Positions 15,590 to 64,000 of a DNA stretch of 64,000 nucleotides are shown in pieces. Both the position numbers and the translations under genes were made by a program. The stretch's first letter is position 1. Each line of letters begins with the position of its first letter. Origin of the DNA: Neoarius graeffei (lineage: Eukaryota > Chordata > Actinopteri > Siluriformes > Ariidae); assembly GCF_027579695.1 (NCBI RefSeq), contig NC_083572.1, positions 13,104,915-13,168,914 on the forward strand. The letters run 5' to 3'. The notes under the pieces were generated by a model. That model had not been told where the DNA came from and made no database searches. It saw only the letters and a list, made by a program, of their open reading frames with translations.

Positions 15590-15880
15590 CTTAACTGTTA
15601 CTACTCCGGGTTTGCGTTGTAGTCAAGACCAAGACTTTGAGGGGTTGAGACCAAGTCAAGACCAAGACCAGACCAGTGGGTGTAAAGGGGCAGGGAGGAT
15701 ACACAGACAATTTAGTGAAATCCCCACAGTTGTGGTCTTCACCGGTCTTGAAATAAAATCCCCCAAGTCCTCCATGTCCAAGACTGAGAAAAGACTGAAT
15801 AAAAACGCGGTAGATTCCGAGACCTTTAAAAAGTGGTCTCGAGACCGGTCTCGAGTACTACGACACTACTTCGAGTATCT
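15590..15880. repeat. MITE-like 'GACCAAGAC/GTCTCGAGACC' element
   Basis: Left part GTAGTCAAGACCAAGACTT and right part GTCTCGAGACCGGTCTCGAG followed by TACTACGACACTACT form rough inverted ends typical of an abundant fish MITE. It ends about 30 bp before the GIMAP gene A exon acceptor. Confidence 0.6.
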
Positions 15881-15908
15881 TTTGAGCTCACTTTCTCTCC
15901 ATTTCCAG

Positions 15909-16462
15909 ACTCATCTGGCAGCCATGCCGGCATTCCAGAGGTGCGCATCATCCTGGTTGGCAACATAGGCTGTGGGAAGACCCTGACGGCTGACACGCTG
16001 CTGAAGGACAGCTCGAGTGCGAGCGCCCTAGCGCAATCACGGTTGAGTGAGGTTCGGCAAGGGGTGTCAGAGGGACGGCACCTCAGATTGGTCGAGACGC
16101 CACGCTGGTACTGGAAAGGCAAGCACATTGACTCCAACGTGCAGAAAGAGACAGAGAAGGCTCTCAGCTTGGTGGCACCGGGGCCGCACGCCTTCCTCAT
16201 CCTGGTGCCCGTAGGACAGTTCACCGAGATGGAGGGCCGAATTCCTGCTGAGCTGGAGCGGGTGTTCGGTAAGGGTGCACTGGAACACTCCCTGGTGCTG
16301 CTCACCTGCGGAGATTATTTGACAGGCCGAGACCATGATCGCTACGTGAGGCTGGACGAGCCTGGACTCAGCACCATGGTGAACGAGTGTGGAGGACACT
16401 GGCACGTGATCAATAACCGCAGACCAGAGGACAGACAGCAGGTCATATCACTGCTGGAGAAG
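15909..16462 (+). CDS. GIMAP-like gene A, AIG1-domain exon
   Basis: A 554-bp exon with acceptor TTTCCAG|AC and donor AAG|GTGAGC. It encodes nearly the whole AIG1 GTPase domain, from VRIILVGNIGCGKT to NNRRPEDRQQVISLLEK. A MITE ends roughly 30 bp upstream of the acceptor, so the polypyrimidine and branch region is squeezed against repeat sequence. An ATG at 15924 is in another frame and is not the start. Confidence 0.85.
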
Positions 16463-19222
16463 GTGAGCCTTCTCAAACCATTTCATAAACCTAACTCATT
16501 TTAATACCAAAGCACTGTTGAAATGACAGATTCTGATTAGTTCGGAGGTGTTGACCAATTTTCTATAACACCAGCTCGGATAGTAGTTCAAACTGCAAAG
16601 CTCGAATACGTTTCGGTTTCTATAGTAACGCGTTACACAGGGATTTGCATAGCAGACACTCCAAACACTTCAGAGTATTACAACACTTAGTAATACATAA
16701 ATATATTCCAACTAGTGTAATAGCTGTGAGGTGTTTAACATTTTTTGGAAGGAGTCTCCAGGGTCAGTGAATTTTCTGTCTGAGGGAATGAGTGTTTATA
16801 GCTGCTATAACGTAAGTGATAAAGGAACTGACTAATTTCCAAGACATTCCACCATGAAATGTTGCTATAAAAGGAAAAACATACAAGCCTGATTCCAAAA
16901 AAGTTGGGACTCTAGGTAAAACGTAAAAACAGAACGCAATGATCTGCAAATCCTTTTTGACCTAGATTTCATTGAATACAATAAAGAGAAGGATATTTAA
17001 ACTGGTAAACTTTTTTTTAAAAATAAAAACATACATACATCCATTCTGAATTTGATGCCCGCAACATGTTCCAAAAAGTTGGGACAGGGGCATGTTTACC
17101 ACGGTGTTATATCACCTTTTAACAACACTTGGGAAGCATTTAAGAACTGAGGACAGGAACTGAGGAATTGTTGAAGTTTTCAACATGAAGTTCTTTCCCA
17201 TTCTTGTTTGATATCTGCTCAACAGTCCGGGGTCTCTGTTGTCGTTTTGCATTTCATAACGTGCCACACATTTTCACTGGGAGGCAGGCAGGCCAGTTTA
17301 GCACCCCCACTCTTATTATGATACCACACTGTTGTAACATGTGCAGAATATGGCTTAGCATTGTCTTGCTGGAATAAGCAAGCACGTCCCTGAAATAGTC
17401 GTCTAGATGGCAGCATATGTTGCTCCAAAACCTGTATGTACCTTTCAATATTAAATGGAGCCCAGATTCGGATGGTCCATTTTCTCTTTAGCCTGGAGAA
17501 CACAACGTCTATGATTTCTTAAAAAAAAAAGTCAACTTGTTAGGCCACACCACATTTTTCCACCTTGCATCAGTCCATCTCACGTGAGCTCAGGCCCAGA
17601 GAATTTGCCAGGGTTTCTGGGTGTTCTTGATATGTGGCTTACTCTTTGCATGGTAGATGCAGCGACAAACAGTTTTCTGAAGTGTTCCCAAGCCCATGTA
17701 GGAATATCGTTTATACAATCATGTTAGTTTTTAAATGCAGCGTCACCTGAGGGATCAAAGGTCATGGGTGTTCGATGTTGGCTTTCGGCCTTGCCCCTTA
17801 CGTGCAGAGATTTCTCTGGATTCTCTGAATCTTTTGCTGATATTATGGATTGCAGATGAAATTAAATTTCTTGCAATTGTACGTTGAGAAATGTTCTTAA
17901 ACCATTGGACTATTTGTCCACACAGTTTTTACACAAAAGTGGTGAACCTCGTCCCATCCTTGCTTGTGAACGACTGAGCCTTTCCGATTAACCTGGAAAA
18001 CGTTCCAAACAGGTGTTTAAGCATTCCACAACCTTCCCAGTCTTTTGCTGCTCCTGTACCAACTTCTTCGGAACGTGTTGCAGGCATCAAATTCAGAAGG
18101 AGTGTATATTTACAAGAAAAAAAAAGTTTATCCCTCGCTTTTTTCATTAAATATTTTGTATTTGTATTGAATCTATAATGAAAATGGTTTGAAAATAAAT
18201 TGTCCTAACTTTTTTGGAATGGGGGGGGGGGGGTGTACAATGTGTCACTTTATAAACGAATAATAATTTGTAATATTTGCAAAATTGCTGCGATGAATAA
18301 AGATAAATAAAATGATGTGGGGTCTGTTGTTTGAAGCACGTTGGCAGCATCATAACCCCCCGGTCCATCGTTTTCCTAGAACAGCACACCATGATTTGTT
18401 TTGTTCCTTTTGTGACCGATCATTCATAGAACATGCGGCATTATGAAAATAAATATCAATTAGGGATCATTTTTTATTCTTGAATGAAAGAACGAAATCT
18501 GGCGACACTGCTAAAATGCACATTTGAAACATTTTGTGGCTGTGCCTGCCAGTTTCATTTGGGAGGCATGGTCAAAGCTCACTTTTTTTTGGATTAAAAT
18601 GGAACAGCTTTCAGAATAGCATTATGTTGTGTAAAATGTTGCTTTTATCCATCAGATCATTGGTAATGGAGAAACCATATGGTGCAACCCAAGACTATTT
18701 AGCACAGACTCACATTTACCCTCCCATTACTTGCTAAATGAAGTTCGTGTGTCTCCTCAACTTTGAGAATGACTCATTAGAGGAACGACCAGGACTTGTT
18801 TGGTTGTAATGAATGGAACGTGTGGAACTCAATTAAACACCACTCTCTGCCAGGTGGAGCAGCTGACCGAGAGCTCCGGTGGCTGTTACCGGCCAAGCGC
18901 CATGCAGAGAGAGGTAGATGAACAAGTGCATGAGAAGGACCTTGAGCTCCAGAGAAGGTACAGCCTGCGGGAGGAGGAGTTGGTGCGCCCAGATCACAGC
19001 ACGCTGACCCAGACAACATGGAGCAAAGAGGAGACGTGGGACGAGTCCGGGAAGAGAGTGAAGATTAGGGTCAGGAGTCTGGGGCCATCGAAAGGGAGGA
19101 TGGTATCACAGCTGGTCAATGGGCTTCAATCTCAGTCGTCCTACGATGACTCGCCTACAGGACTCCAGAAGAAGAGTTCCAGTTTCAAACTGAATAAAGG
19201 TGCCACACCTCAGTTCTTTTGA
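15909..19222 (+). CDS. AIG1/GIMAP-type GTPase gene A (5' exon not found)
   Basis: Exons 15909-16462 and 18854-19222. Exon one follows acceptor TTTCCAG, needs 1 nt from an unseen upstream exon, and ends in phase 0 at LLEK|GTGAGC. Exon two follows TGCCAG, continues VEQLTES and ends with TGA at 19220-19222. The fused LLEK-VEQ junction matches LLEKVEQ in gene B exactly. AIG1 features: G1 loop GNIGCGKT, G3-like VETPRWYW, conserved box APGPHAFLILVPVGQFT, and LLTCGDYL at the G4 position. GIMAP family members are membrane-associated GTPases of immune cells. The switch region between G1 and G3 is shorter than in gene B and lacks the Thr-rich G2, so GTP binding or hydrolysis may differ. The tail is charged (YSLREEELVRP) with no membrane segment. 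The start codon is unknown. Confidence 0.82.
16887..18231 (-). mobile_element. Tc1/mariner-superfamily transposon remnant
   Basis: Ends read ATTCCAAAAAAGTTGGGAC at left and GTCCTAACTTTTTTGGAAT at right, an inverted pair. Minus-strand coding pieces near 17500-17230 include LEQHMLPSRRLFQGRACLFQ and QQDNAKPYSAH (second Asp region). Numerous stops are present. It lies in the intron of GIMAP-like gene A. Confidence 0.75.
18240..18850. other. distal intron of GIMAP-like gene A
   Basis: No repeat family recognised apart from a poly-G run at 18221-18232. It leads into the terminal exon acceptor at 18853. Confidence 0.4.
18854..19222 (+). CDS. GIMAP-like gene A, terminal exon
   Basis: Encodes about 122 residues, VEQLTESSGG to GATPQFF, rich in Glu, Lys and Ser. 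The segment YSLREEELVRP resembles HSLREEEEFEQ in gene B, supporting tandem paralogy. Acceptor is CTCTGCCAG|GTG. An AATAAA inside the coding end (about 19193) is not taken as the polyA signal. Confidence 0.78.
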   Translation: MEQLTESSGGCYRPSAMQREVDEQVHEKDLELQRRYSLREEELVRPDHSTLTQTTWSKEETWDESGKRVKIRVRSLGPSKGRMVSQLVNGLQSQSSYDDSPTGLQKKSSSFKLNKGATPQFF

Positions 19223-22535: not shown

Positions 22536-23233
22536 TCAGTACGTTTACATGCACATCCAAATCGAGCTGCTGTCGGTAATCGAGCAAAGGGTCCCAGCAG
22601 GGGTGCCAGAGAAATCCAATCCTACATGCACACAAGGAAATCGAGCTATTGTGTGAGGCACATTGTGCACCCGAGCCACAGGTGGCGCTACACGCCCCAT
22701 CGTGTTGGTACACTTCCGGTTGTCGTCATGAAGAAGAGCTATTCAAGAGTGTAAACAAAGTTTTCAGTTCCATGTTCTCCATTGCGCATTTTTCTCCCAT
22801 CCATGAATTTTAATATATTCAACTCCTTAAGCTGAATGAGCATGAACTCTGTCTCCTCATTGCTCCAGAAGTGCACGTTTCTGCTCGCCATTTTCTCTTC
22901 TTCGTTTGTTCCTCCTGACCTCTTCTGCTGCTCGCTACTACTGTTGTCATGCCGACCGAGGCTGTCGTGTTTCCCGCTTGTGGTCTCGTCACTCGTCACT
23001 TCCGGAAGGGGCAGTGCTGAAGTAAGTAGCTGGACTACGTAGCTCGATAGGGTATACATGCACTAAGTAGCTCGGCAAAAATCGCATAATCTAGGTCGTG
23101 TAGCTCGATTACGAGAAATCAAGTTTGGTTCAATTTCAGCCGAGCTAAGGTGTTTCCATGGCATTTAGAACTTCGATTTCAGTCGAGCAACGGCAGAAAT
23201 TCGATTTTCTCTATGTGCATGTAAACGCACTGA
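22536..23233 (-). mobile_element. PIF/Harbinger-like element with Myb-type ORF fragment
   Basis: Ends TCAGTACGTTTACATGCACAT and (inverted) TCAGTGCGTTTACATGCACAT match closely. A 3-bp duplication is not clear (cag versus gag). On the minus strand from 22891 the frame MASRNVHFWSNEETEFMLIQ and LKELNILKFMDGRKMRNG is the Myb/SANT-like DNA-binding start of the accessory protein of Harbinger elements. The rest is deleted. Confidence 0.7.
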
Positions 23234-24312: not shown

Positions 24313-25460
24313 AGTCCTGGTGTTAGCTGTTACTATAGAAGTTATAACATATTAGAAGCAGAGCATTAAAGGTAGACTGCCTTTCAGATTTTCCAAGTTG
24401 AGGTCATATATATATAAAAATAAAATTCCGACATCCAATTACTTTTGTTTAATGGACCGAAAGCTACAGAATTTGAATCACAGACTCCCAATTTTATTCG
24501 ATTTTTTTTTAAATAGAACAATTAATGAATTTAGAGCCACATGTCCCTAAATTCTCCACTATTTTTTCTTGCTTTACCATGACCCAATTCAAGATACTAC
24601 GTCGCGCAAGGCATTGTGGGATACAAATTTGAAACCGGAGAGAAAAATGGAGGATGCGAATGAAACGTGAAAGACCGACTACAGTAACAGGAAGTGAGAA
24701 GACGACATTATGTTGCGAAGGAAAGCAAACGCAAGACCAAACTAATAAATATCGGCGGTCATCGAGCACCTCGGTGTGATCAGCTGTTCGTTTAGCGACA
24801 GAATGTCAGTGCACTATCAAAGGTAGACCTGTAGATGGCAGTAATGCAACACTGGGTGCCAGCTACCATAAAACCCAAAAGATAAGCGTGCACATGCGCA
24901 CACGGACTTCCTCAGTCTGCTCAAATTAAATAACTTCCCAGCCACAGAATGGCTTTTTTTTTTTAATATATAGATATTACAGAAATAAACAATCACAATG
25001 ACCAAATTTCAGAAGGAACTAAATTTCACCGAGTTTATGAAATCAAAAGGCCGTATAGTTTTAACTAGAACCACAGTCTGAGCTGCTATTACAGAAAATC
25101 AAATCAATCAATACCTTACACGTGACCAATCAGAATGAAGCACTCAGCAGCACTGTGGATTAATTTCTGATCAACAACCAAGTGTTACTGATTTTTGCAT
25201 CATTTTTTTAGATGAATATTTCAGGTCAACTGAAACTTGAGCTTGCAAACGTGCAGCTTTTTTCTTCTTGATGTTGATTGTCATGTTGTAAACACCCATT
25301 ACTCAAATCTCGTTATTTGCGCGATACGCATTTCATTTTCACATTTGCCTATATCTTTTTGAAAGGTGTCTTCTCCAATTCTCAGCCATGAAAAGCACTT
25401 GCCTGAAAGAACTTTTAAAATGTGAATAATGCATGGAAATTTCTCTCATTCTCTTTTCTT
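24313..25460. other. upstream region / first intron of GIMAP-like gene B
   Basis: No exon recognised. It includes the common element text gaccaatcagaatgaagcactc near 25125 and ends in a polypyrimidine tract and acceptor at 25462, which implies an upstream non-coding exon. Confidence 0.4.
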
Positions 25461-25482
25461 AGTCCGTTACCACATCGGAACC

Positions 25483-26109
25483 ATGAGGGACGCCAGCTCT
25501 ACTCCACCTTCCATCCCATCACCGACAGCTGCCACTGCTTCTTCCTCTAATGCTTTGTCCTCTAGGTCTTCCACTACCTCCTCCTCTTCATCATCTTCTG
25601 CTTTTGCACCTTCATCCACCACTAACTTCTCCAACTCATCCACTACCTTTTCCTATTCCCCCACCAATGCCTCCTTCTCTCCCTTTTCTAATGCCTCGTC
25701 CTCTTCCCCCACCAGTGCCTCCTTCCCATCCTCCTCCTCCAGTACCAATACCTCATTCTTGTCCTCCTCCACTGCCTTTTCCTCTTCTTCTCCCAGCACC
25801 AATAACTCCTCCACTACCATCTCCTCTTCTCCTCCCAGCACCAATACCTCATTCTTGTCCTCCTCCACTGCCATCTCTTCTTCTCCCAGGACCAATGCTG
25901 CCTCCTTATCTTCCTCCACTGCCTCATCATCTCTCAATGGTTCCTCAAATGAACTGAGACTGGTCCTGCTGGGTCGGTCTGGATCTGGGAAGAGTGCAGC
26001 TGGGAACGCCATTCTGGGTCGAGATGAGTTTAAGCTGCGTGGAAATGATGCCACTGGTGCCACCACACAGTCATGCATGAAAGGAACAGCTGTGATTGGA
26101 CAGAAACGG
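25483..26109 (+). CDS. GIMAP-like gene B, exon with Ser-rich region and G1 loop
   Basis: 209 codons from ATG 25483. The first ~155 residues are low complexity with imperfect repeats (SSSPSTN and NTSFLSSSTA recur). The GTPase domain then begins at NELRLVLLGRSGSGKS and the exon ends at VIGQKR. The reverse-strand acidic frame and the +1 proline-rich frame over 25550-26129 are by-products of the repetitive composition. Confidence 0.85.
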
Positions 26110-27024
26110 GTCAGTACTGTCTGATTCATATTGCATTCATAGCCTTACACCACATATTCCCATTTTCACCCAATGACTAGGCCAAGTTAGTAACGAGTGT
26201 ATGTGTTGCTGTCTCAGGTGGCAGTGGTGGACACTCCAGACTGGTTCTGGCCCAGCTGTCCCCCCGAGAAGTTGGCAAGCAATTTGTCCTCCTGTATGGA
26301 TCTGTGTGCCCCAGGCCCTCATGCCTTTCTACTGTGCATTCCTGTCACCCTGCCTGGCCGCTCAAACTTGCATGACCTGGGCTCTATAAGGAATTCCTTT
26401 GGTCACAACGCCATCCTGCGCCGTACCTTGGTCCTCTTTACACACTCGGACATGCTGAAGGACGTAGACGTGGAGGAATACATCGCAGCCAAACGACCAG
26501 AGTTGCTCGAGTTGGTGGAGAAGTGTGGTGACAACTACCATGTGCTGAAGCAAGGAGGGAATGGAGAGAATATTGAGGCGCTACTGGAGAAGGTGGAGCA
26601 GGTGGTGAAAGAAAGTGGAGGAGGCCATTACGGCTACCAGGGACAGGTGGAGTTTGGCAGAGAAAGGACGACACCATCGCGGAGAGGCCGAGGGGGAGAG
26701 GACGATGTGGACCGAGCCATCTCAGCCACTCTACATTCTCTGAGAGAAGAAGAGGAATTTGAGCAAGAAGAGAAAAATGCAAAACCAGCAGGATCCACAG
26801 TCTCATCGGTCACTTCTGTGCTTGGCTCCATCCTTCGATTTCTTGGGCAGAAGGCAGGCCAAGGTGCCAAGCAAGTGCCTAAGCTGGTGGCTGGAGGGGC
26901 AGTGCTAGGAGGTGTGCTTGGGCTGTATGTCGGAGGACCTGTAGGGGGTGCTGTTGGGGCTACAGCAGGAAGTGTAGCTGCAGAGTACGGAAGACGAAAA
27001 TACAGCAAACCCAAAACAGACTGA
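25483..27024 (+). CDS. AIG1/GIMAP-type GTPase gene B with Ser-rich N-terminus and glycine-zipper tail
   Basis: Exons 25483-26109 and 26218-27024 join in phase 0 (donor CGG|GTCAGT, acceptor TCTCAG|GTG), predicting 477 residues. The ATG at 25483 is chosen because it follows an apparent acceptor (TTTTCTTAG, ending 25462). An in-frame ATG at 25429 would lie in the upstream intron. Residues about 4-155 are almost entirely Ser, Thr, Pro, Ala and Asn. The AIG1 domain follows: G1 GRSGSGKS at 164-171, GATTQSC near G2, VVDTPDWFW at G3, APGPHAFLLCIPV and LFTHSDML. After a charged Glu-rich segment, residues about 434-462 form repeated GG/GxxxG steps (AVLGGVLGLYVGGPVGG), a glycine zipper likely to insert in membranes. 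Expected role: membrane-associated immune GTPase. The variant donor GTCAGT is weak but fits. AATAAA at 27236-27241 is a fitting polyA signal. Confidence 0.88.
26218..27024 (+). CDS. GIMAP-like gene B, terminal exon
   Basis: 268 codons from VAVVDTPDWFW to YSKPKTD and TGA. Contains the rest of the AIG1 domain, a Glu/Arg-rich linker (residues about 365-410 of the protein) and the glycine-zipper membrane segment. The frame is intact throughout. Confidence 0.87.
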   Translation: MAVVDTPDWFWPSCPPEKLASNLSSCMDLCAPGPHAFLLCIPVTLPGRSNLHDLGSIRNSFGHNAILRRTLVLFTHSDMLKDVDVEEYIAAKRPELLELVEKCGDNYHVLKQGGNGENIEALLEKVEQVVKESGGGHYGYQGQVEFGRERTTPSRRGRGGEDDVDRAISATLHSLREEEEFEQEEKNAKPAGSTVSSVTSVLGSILRFLGQKAGQGAKQVPKLVAGGAVLGGVLGLYVGGPVGGAVGATAGSVAAEYGRRKYSKPKTD

Positions 27025-29577: not shown

Positions 29578-31161
<1,584 letters not shown>

Positions 31162-33081: not shown

Positions 33082-34691
33082 CAGTGGTGCTTGAAAGTTT
33101 GTGAACCCTTTAGAATTTTCTATATTTCTGCATAAATATGACCTAAAACATCATCAGATTTTCACACATGTCCTAAATGTAGAAAAATAGAACCCAGTTA
33201 AACAAATGAGACAAAAATATTATACTTGGTAATTTATTTATTGAGGAAAATGATCCAATATTACATATCTGTGAATGGCAAAAGTATATGAACCTCTAGG
33301 ATTAGCAGTTAATTTGAAGGTGAAATTAGAGTCAGGTGTTTTCAATCAATGGGATGACAATCAGGTGTGAGTGGGCACCCTGTTTTATTTAAAGAACAGG
33401 GATCTATCAAAGTCTGATTTTCACAACACATGTTTGTGGAAGTGTATCATGGCACGAACAAAGGAGATTTCTGAGGACCTCAGAAAAAGCGTTGTTAATG
33501 CTCATCAGGCTGGAAAAGGTGACAAAACCATCTCTAAAGAGTTTGGACTCCACCAATCCACAGTCCGACAGATTGTGTACAAATGGAGGAAATTCAAGAC
33601 CATTGTTACCCTCCCCAGGAGTGGTCGACCAACAAAAATCACTCCAAGAGCAAGGCGTGTAATAGTCGGCAAGGCCACAAAGGACCCCAAGGTAACTTCT
33701 AAGCAACTGAAGGCATCTCTCAAATTGGCTAATGTTCATGTTCATGACCACCATCAGGAGAACACTGAACAACAATGGTGTGCATGGCAGGGTTGCAAGG
33801 AGAAAGCCACTGCTCTCCAAAAAGAACATTGCTGCTTGTCTGCAGTTTGCTAAAGATCATGTGAACAAGCCAGAAGGCTATTGGAAAAATGTTTTGTGGA
33901 TGGATGAGACCAAAACAGAACTTTTTGGTTTAAATGAGAAGCGTTATGTTTGGAGAAAGGAAAACACTGCATTCCAGCATAGGAACCTTATCCCATCTGT
34001 GAAACATGATGGTGGTAGTATCATGGTTTGGGCCTGTTTTGCTGCATCTGGGCCAGGACGGCTTGCCATCATTGATGGAACAATGAATTCTGAATTATAC
34101 CGGCGAGTTCTAAAGGAAAATGTCAGGACATCTGTCCATGAACTGAATCTCAAGAGAAGGTGGGTCATGCAGCAAGACAACAACCCTAAGCACACAAGTC
34201 ATTCTACCAAAGAATGGTTAAAGAAGAATAAAGTGAATGTTTTGGAATGGCCAAGTCAAAGTCCTGACCTTAATCCAATCGAAATGTTGTGGAAGGACCT
34301 GAAGCAAGGAGTTCAATGTGAGGAAGCCCACTGGCATCCCAGAGTTGAAGCTGTTCTGTACGGAGGAATGGGCTAAAATTCCTCCAATCCGGTGTGCAGG
34401 ACTGATCAACAGTTACCGGAAACGTTTAGTTGCAGTTATTGCTGCACAAAGGGGTCACACCAGATACTGAAAAGCAAAGGTTCATATACTTTTGCCACTC
34501 ACAGATATGTAATATTGGCTCATTTTCCTCAATAAATAAATGACCAAGGATAATATTTTTCACTCATTTGTTTAACTGAGTTTTCTTTATCTACTTGTAG
34601 GACTTGTGTGAAAATCTGATGTTGTTTTAGGTCATATTTATGCAGAAATATAGAAAATTCTAAAGGGTTTACAAACTTTCAAGCACCACTG
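33082..34691 (+). mobile_element. Tc1-like transposon (CAGTGGTGCTTGAAAG ends)
   Basis: Ends CAGTGGTGCTTGAAAGTTTG are inverted with CAAACTTTCAAGCACCACTG and flanked by TA (33080-33081, 34692-34693). Inverted arms reach about 130 bp or more. 1610 bp long. Confidence 0.95.
33449..34470 (+). pseudogene. Tc1 transposase with about two frameshifts
   Basis: ATG 33449 (MARTKEISEDLRKSVVNAHQ) gives both DNA-binding helices. Frame shifts near 33740-33760 move to the frame holding NVLWMDETKTELFGL, GSIMVWACFAASGPGRL, MQQDNNPKHTSHSTKEWL and [17 protein letters not shown], so all three DDE residues are encoded. A second shift near 34310 precedes the end at TGA 34468-34470. Confidence 0.9.
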
Positions 34692-40678: not shown

Positions 40679-41337
40679 GGCTAACGTCATGCCTACGGAA
40701 GCCGCGAGAGGCCCTTCATATAATCTTTTTTTATTCACCTTGTTATCCCGAGATAACAACATAATTAATTCAGGATCTCGAGAAAACAACACAACTAATT
40801 CGAGATCTCGAGAAAACAAAACAATTATTTCATGATCTCAGCTGGATCACTGTATCTCCGTCGGTAGAGACGAAGCCGGGCCAGTCTTCTGCGGAGGTGC
40901 CGCGGACTAATTTTGAAATTATCTCTTATTAAAAGACTTAATGCAATCTCTCCCTGTGTCAACCCCTGATCAAAATATTGCCTTATTAGGTGATCAATTA
41001 TTCCAGACATTCTAATGACCAAAGTTGCGTCTATACAGAATGAGAAATAGCCCCAAAGTCAGCATATCACAAGTCTCTTGGCGCACCTGAATGAACCATT
41101 TCTCAGCTGTTTACTCGAGATCATGAAATAATTGTTTTGTTTTCTCGAGATCACGGAATAATTTTGTTTTCTCGAGATCTCGAAATAACGGTTTTGTTTT
41201 CTCGAGATCTCGAATTAGTTGTGTTGTTTTCTCGAGATCCTGAATTAATTATGTCGTTATCTCTGGATAACAAGGTGAATAAAAAAAAGGATTATATGAA
41301 GGGCCTCTCTCGGCTTCCGTACATGCCATTAAGCCAA
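40679..41337. mobile_element. palindromic element with CTCGAGAT sub-repeats and an integrase-like HTH ORF
   Basis: Outer ends GCCTACGGAAGCCGCGAGAG and (inverted) GTACGGAAGCCGAGAGAG are followed by TTCATATAATC, TTATCCCGAGATAAC and tandem ~25-bp units built on GATCTCGAGAAAACAA(C/A). The left arm has about three units; the right arm has about five. Between the arms lies one small minus-strand frame (next entry). No flanking duplication was seen. Confidence 0.75.
40825..41022 (-). pseudogene. integrase-like protein N-terminus (helix-turn-helix)
   Basis: 65 residues: MSGIIDHLIRQYFDQGLTQG, EIALSLLIRDNFKISPRHLR, RRLARLRLYRRRYSDPAEIM. It looks like the N-terminal HTH of the DDE integrase-core proteins widespread in fish and invertebrates, which continue with a region ahead of the catalytic core. 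Here the frame ends (AAATAA) exactly where the tandem inverted arm begins, so the core is deleted. Confidence 0.55.
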
Positions 41338-43206: not shown

Positions 43207-43748
43207 TCACCGGTGGTATCCGGACGCCATAACAGTTTGTATCTGTTCCTTCATCTTTTCCATCATCCCTTCACTGACACTCGTCTTAACAATCCCTAAA
43301 TTCTGTGAGCCTAAAGTTTCCTCGCTGTCCGTGTCGCCGTAGCAACTGGAGCTGGGTGACGTGGTCAAAGCGATGACTGAATCCATGGAGTCTCTGTTAC
43401 GGTGAGAAGTGACTAATGCCAGGTGAACAGCAGGAAGTGGCGAAGTGCTCTCTGTGGGACATGCTGGGTGCAGGGCATGACTGTCGCCATTGCCCATTGT
43501 TTCGTTTGTGCCTTTCATCTTGCTCTTGTCCTCCTCCGTGCTGTCGTTGGCCTGGTCATTCAGCAACTTCACCAGAAAGTTGATGTACTTCATGGCAAGC
43601 CGCAGGATCTCATTCTTGCTCAGCTTCTTGTCTGGTGGGTGTGTGGGGATGAGCTTTCGGAGCTCCGAGAAAGCACCGTTGACATTCTGCTGACGCCAGC
43701 GCTCACGGCTGTTCGTGAAAACACGCCTGGCCAGCTTCTGAGGAGGAC
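43207..43748 (-). CDS. lyl1: lyl1 coding exon 3 (bHLH and C-terminus)
   Basis: Follows acceptor CTCTCAG|GTCC and ends with TGA at 43209-43207. It encodes [17 protein letters not shown], the full basic helix-loop-helix including the loop [16 protein letters not shown], and a ~115-residue acidic/Ser-rich tail ending VMASGYHR. The basic-region Glu-Arg pair of NSRERW, used for E-box contact, is present. The upstream 24 codons open in this frame are intron. Confidence 0.93.
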
Positions 43749-46700
43749 CTGAGAGAGAAACACAAACACATGTCACATGAACAGCTATGGTATACATGTT
43801 ATCCATAATCCACAGAAACATGACTTCATGTTATGTGATAATCAAACCATGATCAAAACCATGACACACATTGCAGCCAGGAGCGGCTGGTCTAAATGAC
43901 CAAAGATAGATAAAAAGACAAAAATAGACAGAAAGTTTCTTTTTTGGAATCAATAATAGTTTTCCCCATATTATTCTTATTGTGCCATCAATTTGATCTT
44001 GTGACTGAATGCAATAGTCTAATTGTTCCATTGTCAATATTGGCTGGCGTTGGGTGGTGTAGTGGTTAGCACTGTCATCTCATAGCTAGAAGGTTCTGGG
44101 TTCGAGCCCAGTGGCTGACGGGGGCCTTTCTGTGTGGAATTTGCATGTTCTCCCCGTGTCTGCGTGGGTTTCCTCCACAGTCCAAAGACATGCAGGTTAG
44201 GCTAATTGGTGGCTCTAAATTGACCGTAGGTGTGAACGTGAGTGTGAATGGTTGTTTGTCTCTGTGTCAGCTCTGCGATGATCTGGCGACTTGTCCAGGG
44301 TGTACCCCGCCTCTCACCCATAGTCAGCTGGGATAGGCTCCAGCTTGCGTGCAACTCTGCCCAGGATAAGCGGTTATAGATAATGGATGGACGGCACTGA
44401 GTGGTATATCATATTCCATTCACCTAGCATGATATTAGACGAGTAGCTGAATGGAATATATCTGATATACCACAAAAAAAAGCCAGCCAATATCTCATCT
44501 CATCTCATTATCTGTAGCCGCTTTATCCTGTTCTACAGGGTCGCAGGCAAGCTGGAGCCTATCCCAGCTGACTACGGGCGAAAGGCGGGGTACACCCTGG
44601 ACAAGTCGCCAGGTCATCACAGGGCTGACACATAGACACAGACAACCATTCACACTCACATTCACAGCTACGGTCAATTTAGAGTCACCAGTTAACCTAA
44701 CCTGCATGTCTTTGGACTGTGGGGGAAACCGGAGCACCCGGAGGAAACCCACATGGACACGGGGAGAACATGCAAACTCCACACAGAAAGGCCCTCGCCG
44801 GCCACGGGGCTCGAACCCGGACTTTTTTACTGTGAGGCGACAGCGCTAACCACTACACCACCATGCCGCCCCAGCCAATATTGTTATTATTATTATCTAT
44901 ACACATTCCTTTCAGGTGTTCAACGCGTCTTTCAAAATTCTCTCAAAATTTTCCATATTTAACGAAGCAAACCCGGCAGCCATGTTTGTTTACAAATTGT
45001 CACAGTCACTCGCTAGTAGGGAAGTTTTACATCTCCGATATGTGACATCATGTTGTCTTGACAACCATGCAATATCATAAACTATATTCAACGCTCATTC
45101 TCCATCGGGTACAGTGGTGTAATACATGTAAGATAAGCGATATGCTAACAATATTGCATGCTATCAAACCAAATGAATGAAACCTGCTAGAAGGGAATAG
45201 AACACATGTTTTTATTCCATCGAAAAAGTGTCTCTGGATGTATAATTAGATTTTAGCCGAAGACAAGCATACAGGCTACATCTTCAGCCAACAGTGCTAA
45301 GAGGAGTGATTGTGAAACTGTACAAGTTGAGGGAACTACTGAAGCAGTATTGGTGCTGTGCTGATTCAGGGAAACAGCAAACCTTTTTAAGAACTGAACC
45401 ATGTTTCTACCAGTTTAAGCTCTTACATAATTATGTGTGCCAGTAATGGATGATAAACAAAAATGTTACAGATGATTGATTGTACAAGTTAACTTTCAGA
45501 CTTTAAGAATCATTAAAGTTAGCGTCCTTCTTCAGACTACTGATTCACAAGTGTTTATTATATATATCTTTTTTTTTTTAAAAAAACCCTCACATATTGT
45601 CATTTCAATGATGGCGATTAAAAGTAGCTCGAGTTTAAATTTCATGGTGACAAAACACCAGGTCAAAGTGTGTGATGTGCCACAGAGCTGGTCGCCGGTT
45701 CCAGACGAGGCAGCATTCTGGTGGTGGAACCGAATTCAATTTTACGCTGTGAATCAGTTCTTTGGGATAGAAGAGCTTTGAACAAGACTGAAACTACCAC
45801 TCTGTGTATACTGTGCATTAAATAGTTATTCAATCTCATGGTTCCATTGGATATCCTATGTCTATGATGACTAACTCTGTCTTTCACCTTAATCTAAACC
45901 GTTAATGACAGCATGAACATTAAAGTGGACTAGAACATGGGTTCTCAAATTTTTCCAGTCAAGGAAACAAAAAATGAATGGTTGTGCTTCACAGATCCCT
46001 GGGGTTCCCAAGACCCCACTTCGAGAACCGTTGGAGTAGAGAGGCCAGTGGAATGTTCTAACTTACAATCAGTGAGATCCAATTCAAAATGGGATGACGG
46101 TCTTCTCTTAACACGGTTGTTGCTGAAGAAACCATAACTACTGGAGGGACTAAGGAAAGAGCTGCAAGAGATAAAACCAAAACAGATTAACTTAACACAC
46201 ACAAAAAAAAAAAAAAAACAACAACATATTTTAAAGATGGTCATTAATGTGGTCATTTGTAATCTTGTAATCTGCTCCCAAGAAACAAAAACAGGTTTCT
46301 GTAACAAATTACACAGTTTAACCACTGTTTCATGGAAGGGGAAAGAAATCCATAAAAAGCAATTATCTTGGGTTTAATGAGTTCCTGTGTTTTGATTGAG
46401 ATGATGTGACCAGTCAAGACCTGACTTCATTACATCTGTATAGCGAATGATTGATAGAGTCGATGTAGATCTTTACCCGTTCCAGACACAGGACCGTGCG
46501 ACAGTTTGTGAAATTCAGGCTGCTTGTTAAATTAGAACCTTTTCAACATCTCTGTTTTTCTTGAAGTGTTTCGAGGAACTTGACCTCATTATACACTACC
46601 GTTCAAAAGTTTGGGGTCACCCAGACAATTTTGTGTTTTCCATGAAAAGTCACACTTTTATTTACCACCATAAGTTGTAAAATGAATAGAAAATATAGTC

Positions 46701-55188: not shown

Positions 55189-57880
55189 GCCCATAGTGTT
55201 TAATTAGAGTAATTCTTTGATGACACACAATGTATAACGATTCAACAGTACAGTACAGTACAGTGTAGTTCTCCTTAAGTGACAATAGTTACCCCGGAGC
55301 CAGGCCAAAACATGTCTCAATGAGTTTCCTAAACTCAAGTTTGGACTGCGTGGCCCTCTTTGCCTGTTTGGTCATGATCCCCAACAGGTTGCCGATCTTT
55401 AGCCAGGGTTCTCTGTAGAATTTTCTTGTCAGCAATGCAAATAAGACCTTTTACGTGAGTCTTGCATTTTCTTCTCTACACACATCAGCAATCCATTTAC
55501 GATACTGCACAGTAATGATATCTCTGATGGCCACAGTCTTTGTTATTTCCAAGATGTCTTCTTTTGAGTAAACGAAGCGAAATGCTTCATCCTTCCGGCG
55601 CCACCCACCCTTCACCATACTACGCAGATATTGTCCCCAGCAAGCCGCAAGCTTGGCCATTTGACGCTCACTTACAGTAGAAGCCACGCTTGCGTGCTGT
55701 AGATAAATCGCGAACGAATGTACGCTTCCACAATCTTTCTTCTAGTGGCCATGGACACTCTAAAGTCTGTTAACACAATTCTCGACTCATTAAATTTCGC
55801 TGTCGCACTAGCCGCACGGTGTATCTTCCGTATTGCTTACAACCTGCCCAAGATATCTAAATTCTCTCACATTCTCGATGGTCTGGCCGTCCATACTAAG
55901 CACTGTTTGCTCCTGCGCAAGGGATTGGTCATTCAACACCTGCGTTTTTGTTTTCTTGAAGGATATCGTCAGCCCAAAACGCTTACAGGTCTCACTGAGT
56001 ATGCTCAAAACTTTTTCGGCTTCGTACACGGATTTAGCGAAAAGAACATCATCATCATCATCTGCATACAAAATCCACTTGACTAAGATAACTGATAGAT
56101 GAAGACTATCTTGAGTGTTTTTCCTCTGCATTTAGAAGTCAGGCAATCCCAAAACATCACCGAGCACAGAAAAAGACATGCATAATCAGTGTTTTGTGAC
56201 ACATAACATAATTATGTTTTAATGACGGACGACACTGCTGGTCTGATTAATAATGGCTCTGAATTATAAAGCGCATATACAGTGGGGCAAAAAAATATTT
56301 AGTCAGCCACCAATTGTGCAAGTTCTCCCACTTAAATAGATGAGAGAGGCCTGTAATTTTCATCATAGGTACACTTCAACTATGAGAGACAGAATGGGGG
56401 GAAAGCATCCAGGAAATCACATTGTAGGATTTTTAATGAATTAATTGGTAAATTCCTCTGTAAAATAAGTATTTGGTCACCTACAAACAAGCAAGATTTC
56501 TGGCTCTCACAGACCTGTAACAACTTCTTTAAGAGGCTCCTCTGTCCTCCACTCGTTACCTGTATTAATGGCACCTGTTTGAACTTGTTATCAGTATAAA
56601 AGACACCTGTCCACAACCTCAAACAGTCACACTCCAAACTCCACTATGGCCAAGACCAAAGAGCTGTCAAAGGACACCAGAAACAAAATTGTAGACCTGC
56701 CGCAGGCTGGGAAGACTGAATCTGCAATAGGTAAGCAGCTTGGTGTTAAGAAATCAACTAGCAATTATTAGAAAATGGAAGACATACAAGACCACTGATA
56801 ATCTCCCTCGATCTGGGGCTCCACACAAGATCTCACCCCGTGGGGTCAAAATGATCACAAGAACGGTGAGCAAAAATCCCAGAACCACACGGGGGGACCT
56901 AGTGAATGACCTGCAGAGAGCTGGGACCAAAGTAACAAAGGCTACCATCAGTAACACACTACGCCGCCAGGGACTCAAATCCTGCAGTGCCAGACGTGTC
57001 CCCCTGCTTAAGCCAGTACGTGTCCAGGCCCGTCTGAAGTTTGCTAGAGAGCATTTGGATGATCCAGAAGAGGATTGGGAGAATGTCATATGGTCAGATG
57101 AAACCAAAATAGAACTTTTTGGTAAAAACTCAACTTGTCGTGTTTGGAGGAGAAAGAATGCTGAGTTGCATCCAAAGAACACCATACCTACTGTGAAGCA
57201 TGGGGGTGGAAACATCATGCTTTGGGGCTGTTTTTCTGCAAAGGGACCAGGACGACTGATCCGTGTAAAGGAAAGAATGAATGGGGCCATGTATCGTGAG
57301 ATTTTGAGTGAAAACCTCCTTCCATCAGCAAGGGCATTGAAGATGAAACGTGGCTGGGTCTTTCAGCATGACAATGATCCCAAACACACCGCCCGGGCAA
57401 CGAAGGAGTGGCTTTGTAAGAAGCATTTCAAGGTCCTGGAGTGGCCCAGCCAATCTCCAGATCTCAACCCCATAGAAAATCTTTGGAGGGAGTTGAAAGT
57501 CCGTGTTGCCCAGCGACAGCCCCAAAACATCACTGCTCTAGAGGAGATCTGCATGGAGGAATGGGCCAAAATACCAGCAACAGTGTGTGAAAACCTTGTG
57601 AAGACTTACAGAAAACGTTTGACCTCTGTCATTGCCAACAAAGGGTATATAACAAAGTATTGAGATGAATTTTTGTTATTGACCAAATACTTATTTTCCA
57701 CCATAATTTGCAAATAAATTCTTTAAAAATCAGACAATGTGATTTTCTGGATTTTTTTTTTCTCATTTTGTCTCTCATAGTTGAGGTATACCTATGATGA
57801 AAATTACAGGCCTCTCTCATCTTTTTAAGTGGGAGAACTTGCACAATTGGTGACTGACTAAATACTTTTTTGCCCCACTG

Positions 57881-62091: not shown

Positions 62092-62459
62092 TGGAATGAT
62101 CAGGAAGAAAAATCTCTAAAGCCACCAATAAAGGAATAAATAAAGAAATAAGGAATAAATAAATATACATCATAGTACACAATTGCTTAATTTTTTAAAT
62201 TTATTTATTATCTATTATATTTCCAACATGTTTTTAATTGAAAGGGGTCACTGGATGCAAAACATTTGATAATAATAATAATAATAATAATAATAATTGG
62301 AATGATCAGGAAGAAAACTCTCTAAAGCCATCAATAAATGAATAAACAAACAAACAAACATACATCACAGTACACAATTGCCTAATTTTTAAAATTAATT
62401 TATTATTTATTATATTTGCTTTTTTTTTTCATTGAAAGGGGTCACTGGATGCAAAACTC

Positions 62460-62490
<31 letters not shown>

Positions 62491-62533
62491 TGTGGAATGA
62501 TCAGGAAAAAATCTCTAAAGCCACCAATAAAGG

Positions 62534-62565
<32 letters not shown>

Positions 62566-62650
62566 TACACAATTGCTTACTTTTTAAAATTAATTTATTA
62601 TCTATTATATTTCCAACATTTTTTTATTGAAAGGGGTCACTGGATGTAAA
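61855..62650. repeat. four-unit tandem array with embedded (AAT)n and (AAAT)n microsatellites
   Basis: ggaa(a/t)gatcaggaagaaaa starts units near 61856, 62093, 62299 and 62496. gaaaggggtcactggatg occurs near 62008, 62240, 62436 and 62629. Each unit has an AAAT-type run, 'acaattgc(c/t)t', 'attatctattatattt', the ggggtcactgg block and an AAT run. Units of about 195-235 bp differ mostly in microsatellite length. About 0.9-1.7 kb upstream of the lyl1 ATG. Confidence 0.9.
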
Positions 62651-62654
62651 ACAT

Positions 62655-64000
62655 ATGCAGTTTATTTGTTATATCATTTTTGGTATTTGGGTCTTGCATG
62701 CTTCAACCATTTTTGTCTCTCTTTTTTTTTCTACAAAAGCGACATTTTCTAAGAGTGGATTTGATCATTTGCAACCATATTTCAATATTTTTGGACAAAT
62801 CAAGCGACAACACAAAACTATTTACTTGGGCCCATGCTGATTAACGAGTTCAATTTAACACACATCTACTTTCCCTGATGAACGTGAAAATAAATCAAGG
62901 CAAAGGGACTTATTCACTTTCGTCACCCGCAAAAAACAAAACAATGCGCCGCCGATGACATCTGTTTCGGACCGAATAAATACGCGAGGACTGGTGACGG
63001 ATAAATTCGGCCGGCCTTGAATGATTCATGATTTGCTTTTGCAATCGAGATCCTTCCCCTTTTTCCTCCCTCGTCCTCTTTCTCAGATGCCTGCTTCCAT
63101 TCACCGAGTGTGTTTCCCCTTTCTGCTTAAGCACATAAATATATCTCTTATTATTCTGGAGTTTTTAGTTCAACAGAAAACTGTAAAAGTGTGTTTAAGG
63201 AAAGTCACCGTCATGTATGATGTCATATTCGAACTTAACACTATCAAGATTTACAGTACATCAGGCAACGGTGCCAGTGTGTGCCAGTGTGTTTATTTAC
63301 AATCATTGCATGAAATTCATTGGTAATTATTATCGAATTATATGCTGTTATATAGAGTTAAGTCGATGGATTAATTCCTGTCTGAACTGATTGACAGCTT
63401 TTTAATGAATTATCGAGTCTCTGCTGGCGTTAATGCTACATTTAGCCGAAGATGTATCTGCTCGTGTATGCCTTTACATCTGGATGCTATTTTCAGTCTC
63501 AACACGACATTGTAATATGTTGATCGTTTTCAGGACTGCAGATACAGAAGAATAAAAGATACTCATGATTTATTTCATGTTATAATGTAATCTCCTGACA
63601 CATACAGAAAGGGTACTAATAGTAAAATTAAATTCCATGTTTGGATTTATATCTAGATAGAATATTGCATGGATTATTCTGCTTGAAGATGTAATGTAGA
63701 AAAGAGTGTGCAGTTCAGTACACGTCAAGTCCTTATTTCTAATTAGTACTAAAGATGCCTATGTTGTTGCTGTCATTATTATTATTATTATGCATATAAA
63801 TAAAATTTTTATGACATTTTGTATGTTTTAACAACATAAAAGGCCTGAAAACTATGATCGTGATTGTAGTATTGCCTTCCAGTTTCGATTTAACAAGATT
63901 AAGGTGACAAAGTGTGTTTTAAGCTGGATTTAGAAACATCTATACAGCTTACTTTCTCTAAAACACCATATAGTTCCTCAAGAACATGTCCGTTTATGCG
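62655..64000. other. repeat-poor upstream region, no gene recognised
   Basis: No transposon signatures apart from a short TTA run at 63776-63790. A CpG-containing patch at 62930-63020 (cgccgccgatgacatctg; gacggataaattcggccggc) stands out. Could be regulatory sequence; no coding exon found. Confidence 0.35.

Follow-up and report, generated by a model that had tools for sequence, protein, structure and literature searches.

Architecture of the element and its surroundings

The window, meaning the whole 64,000-nt stretch of DNA analysed here, contains AIG1 (GIMAP-type) frames at 15833-16501, 25429-26121 and 26197-27021, with tandem-repeat stretches at 25615-25923 among them. Tc1-type transposase frames are present at 29960-30586, 33732-34373 and 56740-57660. 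A 204-aa minus-strand frame at 43210-43821 carries a helix-loop-helix domain (E 1.1e-19), and a 195-bp tandem repeat (2.7 copies) occupies 62139-62656.

The feature of interest is a 628-bp palindromic element read from the sequence at 40694-41321. The first-pass annotation had recognised the palindrome, which is real, but had set its bounds at 40679-41337; these are corrected here. The element runs from TACGGAAGCCGCGAGAGG.. on the left to ..CCTCTCTCGGCTTCCGTA on the right, giving inverted TA..TA ends. Its 5' letters are TACGGAAGCC and its 3' letters GGCTTCCGTA, with a copy of CATGCC immediately outside each (40688-40693 and 41322-41327), forming the target-site duplication. The very ends constitute a 39-nt terminal inverted repeat (I7; 95% complementarity). 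Its left member (TACGGAAGCCGCGAGAGGCCCTTCATATAATC.., plus strand, 40694-40732) corresponds to the 3' end of the long copies described below, and its right member (ending CCGTA, minus strand, 41283-41321) to their 5' end. At up to three mismatches, the terminus CGGAAGCCGMGAGAG matches the window twice, at both element ends and with no mismatches. Because 11 of 100 shuffles also gave two matches at this threshold, this count proves little, and it is the genome-wide count of a longer end that carries the argument.

Inside these ends, the two arms are inverted copies of each other (114 nt, 95% complementarity), and the inverted repeats including the array extend over 146/148 bp at 94% identity. 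TRF and pattern matches delimit: a left arm (40740-40839, plus strand) that opens with the near-palindrome TTGTTATCCCGAGATAACAA and continues with about three 30-bp units with the core GATCTCGAGAAAACAA; and a right arm (41108-41271, minus strand) of about five 30-bp units followed by a near-palindromic outermost site. TRF counts 3.2 copies at 40745-40839 and 4.9 at 41108-41250, in agreement with the unequal copy numbers (about 3 versus 5) first noticed. The unit length proposed at that stage, about 25 bp, gives way to a spacing of 30 bp, with one step of 27. The 16-mer GATCTCGAGAAAACAA has 10 window matches at up to three mismatches, against 0.68 expected, and none of 100 shuffles reached 10. 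Nine lie inside the element, two of them overlapping on one palindrome; the other is a three-mismatch match at 23107.

Between the arms, a 61-aa minus-strand frame running from 41010 to 40825 translates as MSGIIDHLIRQYFDQGLTQGEIALSLLIRDNFKISPRHLRRRLARLRLYRRRYSDPAEIMK*. By translation, comparison with rva_4 loci and a structure model, this is the N-terminal HTH of an IS3EU transposase, followed by last codons and a stop codon that derive from the arm. The frame enters the left arm at 40839/40840, as expected from the earlier observation that the coding remnant stops at the arm boundary. A single-sequence prediction folds the HTH into three helices (3-14, 19-29 and 36-53) with a mean pLDDT of 77. 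The stretch preceding the ATG (41011-41107, minus strand) has been kept from the long element, as the same sequence lies upstream of the ATG in the long copy L097, where it probably represents the 5' untranslated region.

Genomic copies and the origin of the short form

Besides folding the HTH, the first-pass annotation had proposed collecting copies by their terminus, comparing target duplications and arm unit counts, and seeking full-length copies with a DDE core. Copies were sought by a DNA search of the 2.34-Gb genome (38 contigs), in which 40 of 810 candidates were scored and 40 of 40 matched. This is a non-random sample of the closest copies: one (L001) is the window copy, and the other 39 were read with their flanks. 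Bearing on whether the arrays occur alone, these best 40 matches are element copies, 26 with both ends read; the end scan found no true match at one end in 14 of the 40. All six short copies that lie at independent sites and have both ends are flanked by exact 6-bp duplications (CATGCC, AACAAT, CTGTTG, GGATTT, TGTATG and AAATAG). The window copy has TACGG..CCGTA ends, and TAYGG..CCRTA fits most copies with both ends read; in L015, L016 and L033, the right end departs from CCRTA by one base. Individual copies among the 40 differ in unit count, with 1 to 4 on the left and 4 to 9 on the right, and between close relatives the difference comes in 30-bp steps. Unit types with differing spacers have the 16-bp core in common in the window family, a core that the method favours since it served as the search word.

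Genome-wide, a 32-bp end with one free base occurs 2327 times (1159 forward and 1168 reverse), against 0 for the reversed control. Among the 100 ends that head the listing, all from a single contig, are 24 facing pairs. Twenty of these are 496-877 bp apart; the remaining four are separated by 1306, 1590, 2921 and 8274 bp, and the 2921-bp pair holds the transposase.

One flank is common to 20 of the 40 closest copies (L003, L004, L006-L017, L019, L021, L023, L030, L033 and L034). The 1.5-kb flanks of five of the 20 show it to be a larger repeat, whose inverted ends are TAGGGTGACCAGA..TCTGGTCACCCTA; in L006 this larger inverted-repeat element is surrounded by an 8-bp duplication, CATATGAA. The TAGGGTGACCAGA-ended repeat resembles a hAT-type element and appears to have swallowed the short element and multiplied with it as cargo. 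At the site common to these 20 nested copies, no exact 6-bp duplication is present: GTATAT stands on the right, and on the left these letters are shifted by one base. Copies without the left end lie in a second repeat (TATGCTGTGTTCACACTTATACYGGTACG.., in L022 and L025), and L024 and L037 share its flanks.

A family search with Pfam rva_4 (PF24764, integrase core), in which 150 of 752 candidates were scored, returned at least 156 matches. The window HTH, with 0-2 residue changes, appears in five of 20 short stretches around rva_4 matches (L083, L084, L086, L087 and L089), and in each it runs on into the rest of the transposase. This identifies the frame as the N-terminal HTH of a DDE/integrase-type transposase, in keeping with its original description as integrase-like; the protein with which it aligns is a transposon protein, and full-length copies exist in which the rva_4 core continues from the same HTH.

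Eight longer stretches around HTH loci were then read, of which four were extended and L096, L100 and L102 were not; both ends were read in four of the eight. The long copies span 2.9-5.8 kb and share ends, arms and HTH with the window element. Three of the four with both ends read have a 6-bp target duplication: L095 (2921 bp, CCAATC on both sides), the C6 copy, which is L097 (4211 bp, TTCTCC), and the C11 copy (5585 bp, TGAAAC). The fourth, the C9 copy (5837 bp), shows no target duplication, and TAYGG..CCRTA fits the ends of all four. For the C4 copy, no 3' end was found in the extended stretch read. Both ends bear an array in the window copy, as they do in C6, C9 and C11, the extended long copies for which both ends were read. 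L095 contains an inverted piece of its 5' part within its 3' part, resembling a fold-back rearrangement, yet has an exact duplication. Exon 1 of L097 codes for the HTH and the rva_4 core (E=3.1e-26; rve, E=6.9e-5), with no other Pfam family at E<=1. By position, D132, D191 and E232 are likely the catalytic residues. Read by eye, this copy appears to continue through a GT..AG intron into a second exon of about 116 codons.

Comparison with this long copy locates the deletion junction of the short form at 40837-40839 (minus strand). Here the transposase exon passes into the innermost unit of the 3' arm through a 3-bp microhomology, GAG as read on the minus strand. The C6 copy has GATCCAGCTGAGGTC in the exon and TTCTCGAGATCATGAAATAA in that innermost unit, and the window junction reads GATCCAGCT-GAG-ATCATGAAATAA. 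One deletion from GAG to GAG, about 3.4 kb relative to C6, accounts for the short form and for the stop of the coding frame at the arm.

Arrays upstream of related transposase genes

Other rva_4 loci with the same HTH type have tandem arrays directly upstream of the gene. By family (the letters A-K are our own labels), the unit measures 30 bp in A, the window family, 11/57 in B, 22-23 in C, 21 in D, 24 in E and 21 in G; no array was found upstream of the gene in family F. The prediction of an array was recorded before 10 further stretches were examined, and nine of the 10 have one. Eight of these stretches represent four new families, H (21-22 bp), I (21), J (21) and K (20-21), with seven of the eight positive; the other two belong to families C and E. 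Under a fixed rule requiring an array in the 600 bp that precede the HTH, 22 of 24 loci score, against 7 of 600 random overlapping window segments; this count omits L095, whose HTH word the script did not locate, and its loci are non-independent, seven being of the window family and others coming as pairs or triples of a single family. At the family level, an array is present in 10 of 11, or in nine if the odd period of B is set aside.

Unit sequences differ between families, and the units are palindromic in families D and H. TAYGG starts are seen in A, C, D, E, G, H, I and K, and were not seen in B, F and J, the ends of which perhaps lie outside the stretches read. The longer predicted end, TAYGGAAGC, occurs in none of the four new families, three of which (H, I and K) have the looser TAYGG. 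The families other than A are provisionally assigned to IS3EU, on the rva_4 core, the HTH and, where seen, TAYGG.

The proposed shared half-site YGAGWWA, derived from A, C, D, E and G, held in two of the four later families (J and K) but not in H or I. Family B also lacks it, and one of the two C loci counted shows no enrichment. Coevolution of the HTH with the arrays is not supported by the divergence comparison, in which the HTH was not found to diverge faster than the next stretch of protein (identity across families 0.43 vs 0.48). Separately, L071 joined with L109 (C1:60396162-60405080) contains a 424-bp perfect inverted duplication that includes the start of the HTH gene, as well as a separate 20-bp array (TCGACATGTCGAGTTTAATG, 7.3 copies).

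Proposed mobilisation and array function, and known systems

Taken as a whole, the data are best explained by an internally deleted, non-autonomous (MITE-like) copy of an IS3EU cut-and-paste transposon, mobilised in trans by a transposase whose HTH reads the arms; we place the probability of this reading at about 0.82. The transposase of a long copy, made elsewhere in the genome, would have acted in trans to mobilise the short copies. The N-terminal HTH of this enzyme would bind the arm units (core TTTTCTCGAGATC), with several molecules per arm on the repeated sites, and its catalytic DDE core would cut beside the conserved TAYGG end. The arms would lengthen and shorten by 30 bp at a time, as units are gained and lost. 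The HTH frame of the short copies would be a passenger, the peptide of which, if translated, could compete for the arms. That the arms are arrays of sites for the encoded HTH is plausible from the comparison between families. By analogy with CACTA and Galileo, in which conserved ends accompany divergent arrays, the HTH would read the array and the DDE core would cut at TAYGG. In most families the units, at about 21 bp, approximate two helical turns, and successive sites would then face the same side of the helix; units of 30 and 24 bp match this spacing less closely.

The first-pass annotation suggested that the element may hold its protein and the binding site together. On this idea the short form would be an HTH-only element kept by selection, encoding a repressor or competitor and carrying its own operator. 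An intact frame (codons 1-57) in 29 of the 40 copies, a count that scores trimmed alignment ends as broken (30 of 41 rows with the window present twice), and a modelled HTH of three helices both fit this idea. At a divergence from consensus of only 1.6% in the frame (1.3% in the part before it), however, open frames are expected from youth alone. Per occurrence, the changed codons comprise 43 synonymous, 63 nonsynonymous and 5 nonsense, and the synonymous share (43/111, 39%) exceeds the 23% expected under no selection (with 73% nonsynonymous and 4% nonsense, using our transition and CpG weights). Much of this excess, which would favour selection, is supplied by two shared synonymous variants, in 19 and 6 copies; distinct changes counted once are 16 synonymous, 42 nonsynonymous and 3 nonsense, or 26% synonymous. 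Codon-change counts in the 40 copies thus reveal no clear selection on the frame. The distinct changes look near neutral and one microhomology deletion explains the boundary, so the proposed union of protein and site is not supported, and a selected HTH-only element is considered very improbable. The copies look young and the frame a passenger, with weak past selection possible.

The arms could instead serve the transposase gene as promoter or regulatory arrays, to which a host factor or the transposase itself, acting as autorepressor, would bind; their part in transposition would then be secondary. In the related families the array adjoins the 5' end of the gene, and the joined 8-9 kb stretches of L071-L074 contain no matching 3' array, although their 3' ends were perhaps unreached. 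The window family, in contrast, has an array at both ends, in the window copy and three long copies, including a 3' end without a known gene to drive. We regard a primarily regulatory function as unlikely, while the arrays may have a dual role in regulation and transposition. Less probable still is that the arrays are neutral by-products of replication slippage at the ends, micro-satellites read by no protein. Slippage would accommodate the 30-bp steps among close copies, the differing unit sequences between families and the failure of the half-site idea in several of them. It sits poorly with arrays that recur at a constant position in 10 of 11 families (or nine without B), with the palindromic units of D and H, and with the retention of the window-family 16-bp core across differing spacers, the last of these being favoured by the method.

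A puzzling palindrome can now be filed as an ordinary deletion derivative with its helper family named. About ten IS3EU-like families coexist in this genome; their ends are similar and their HTH domains related, but their arrays differ. Together they form a natural experiment on how each transposase knows its own ends, and offer a testable rule. Somewhat short of an even chance, in our estimate, is the broader proposal that subterminal, roughly helix-phased operator arrays are general in animal IS3EU elements, with TAYGG fixed and each family evolving an array and a matching HTH, thereby preventing cross-mobilisation of related transposons in one genome. The helix phasing in this proposal is based on most units being 20-24 bp, with 11/57 and 30 bp in two families.

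The first impression of what may be a poorly described class yields to a known superfamily: by its ends, duplication length and transposase type, the element fits a non-autonomous member of IS3EU. Passages on this superfamily (with GingerRoot) describe: TA..TA ends, given as TAYGG..CCRTA for fungal families; a usually 6-bp target duplication; inverted repeats >30 bp; and an integrase-like DDE transposase, the N-terminal region of which may replace the integrase N-terminal domain (PMC10045372, PMC12730594). The window element is alike in its ends, its target duplication and its inverted repeats (146/148 bp at 94% and 39 bp at 95%), and L097 encodes a DDE integrase-like transposase with an N-terminal HTH-like region and no HHCC motif. 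Subterminal tandem arrays, a feature of the window element, go unmentioned in those passages. The IS3EU passages on two oyster satellites (129 and 690 bp) annotated as IS3EU-related (PMC8268682), and on a beetle repeat of which half resembles an IS3EU element (PMC5844308), likewise do not describe arrays inside IS3EU elements. No description of such arrays was found in the literature searched; Repbase and Dfam entries, outside this comparison, may show them.

The closest parallels in design come from other superfamilies. CACTA (En/Spm) elements combine conserved short ends with family-specific subterminal repeats read by the element-encoded TNPA, and deletion derivatives are common (PMC2613891). 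The window family resembles them in its ends, repeats and deletion derivatives, with the HTH as the putative reader. It differs in that CACTA elements have their own CACTA termini and a target duplication of 3 bp, and in that two proteins share the tasks of binding and cutting there, whereas the HTH and DDE core here form one chain. In Galileo, of the P-element superfamily, the N-terminal domain of the transposase is described as binding sites repeated within the long inverted repeats (PMC3688188). The window element has in common with Galileo and Foldback-like elements that its long inverted repeats contain tandem repeats; Galileo, however, uses a THAP domain rather than an HTH and belongs to another transposase superfamily. 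Compared with a Foldback element, the arms are repetitive but short (~150-210 bp), and the transposase places the window element elsewhere. Ds of the Ac/Ds system and KP of the P element arose by internal deletions that keep both ends and part of the transposase gene. The window element has the same construction, in a different superfamily, the regulatory role being a feature of KP.
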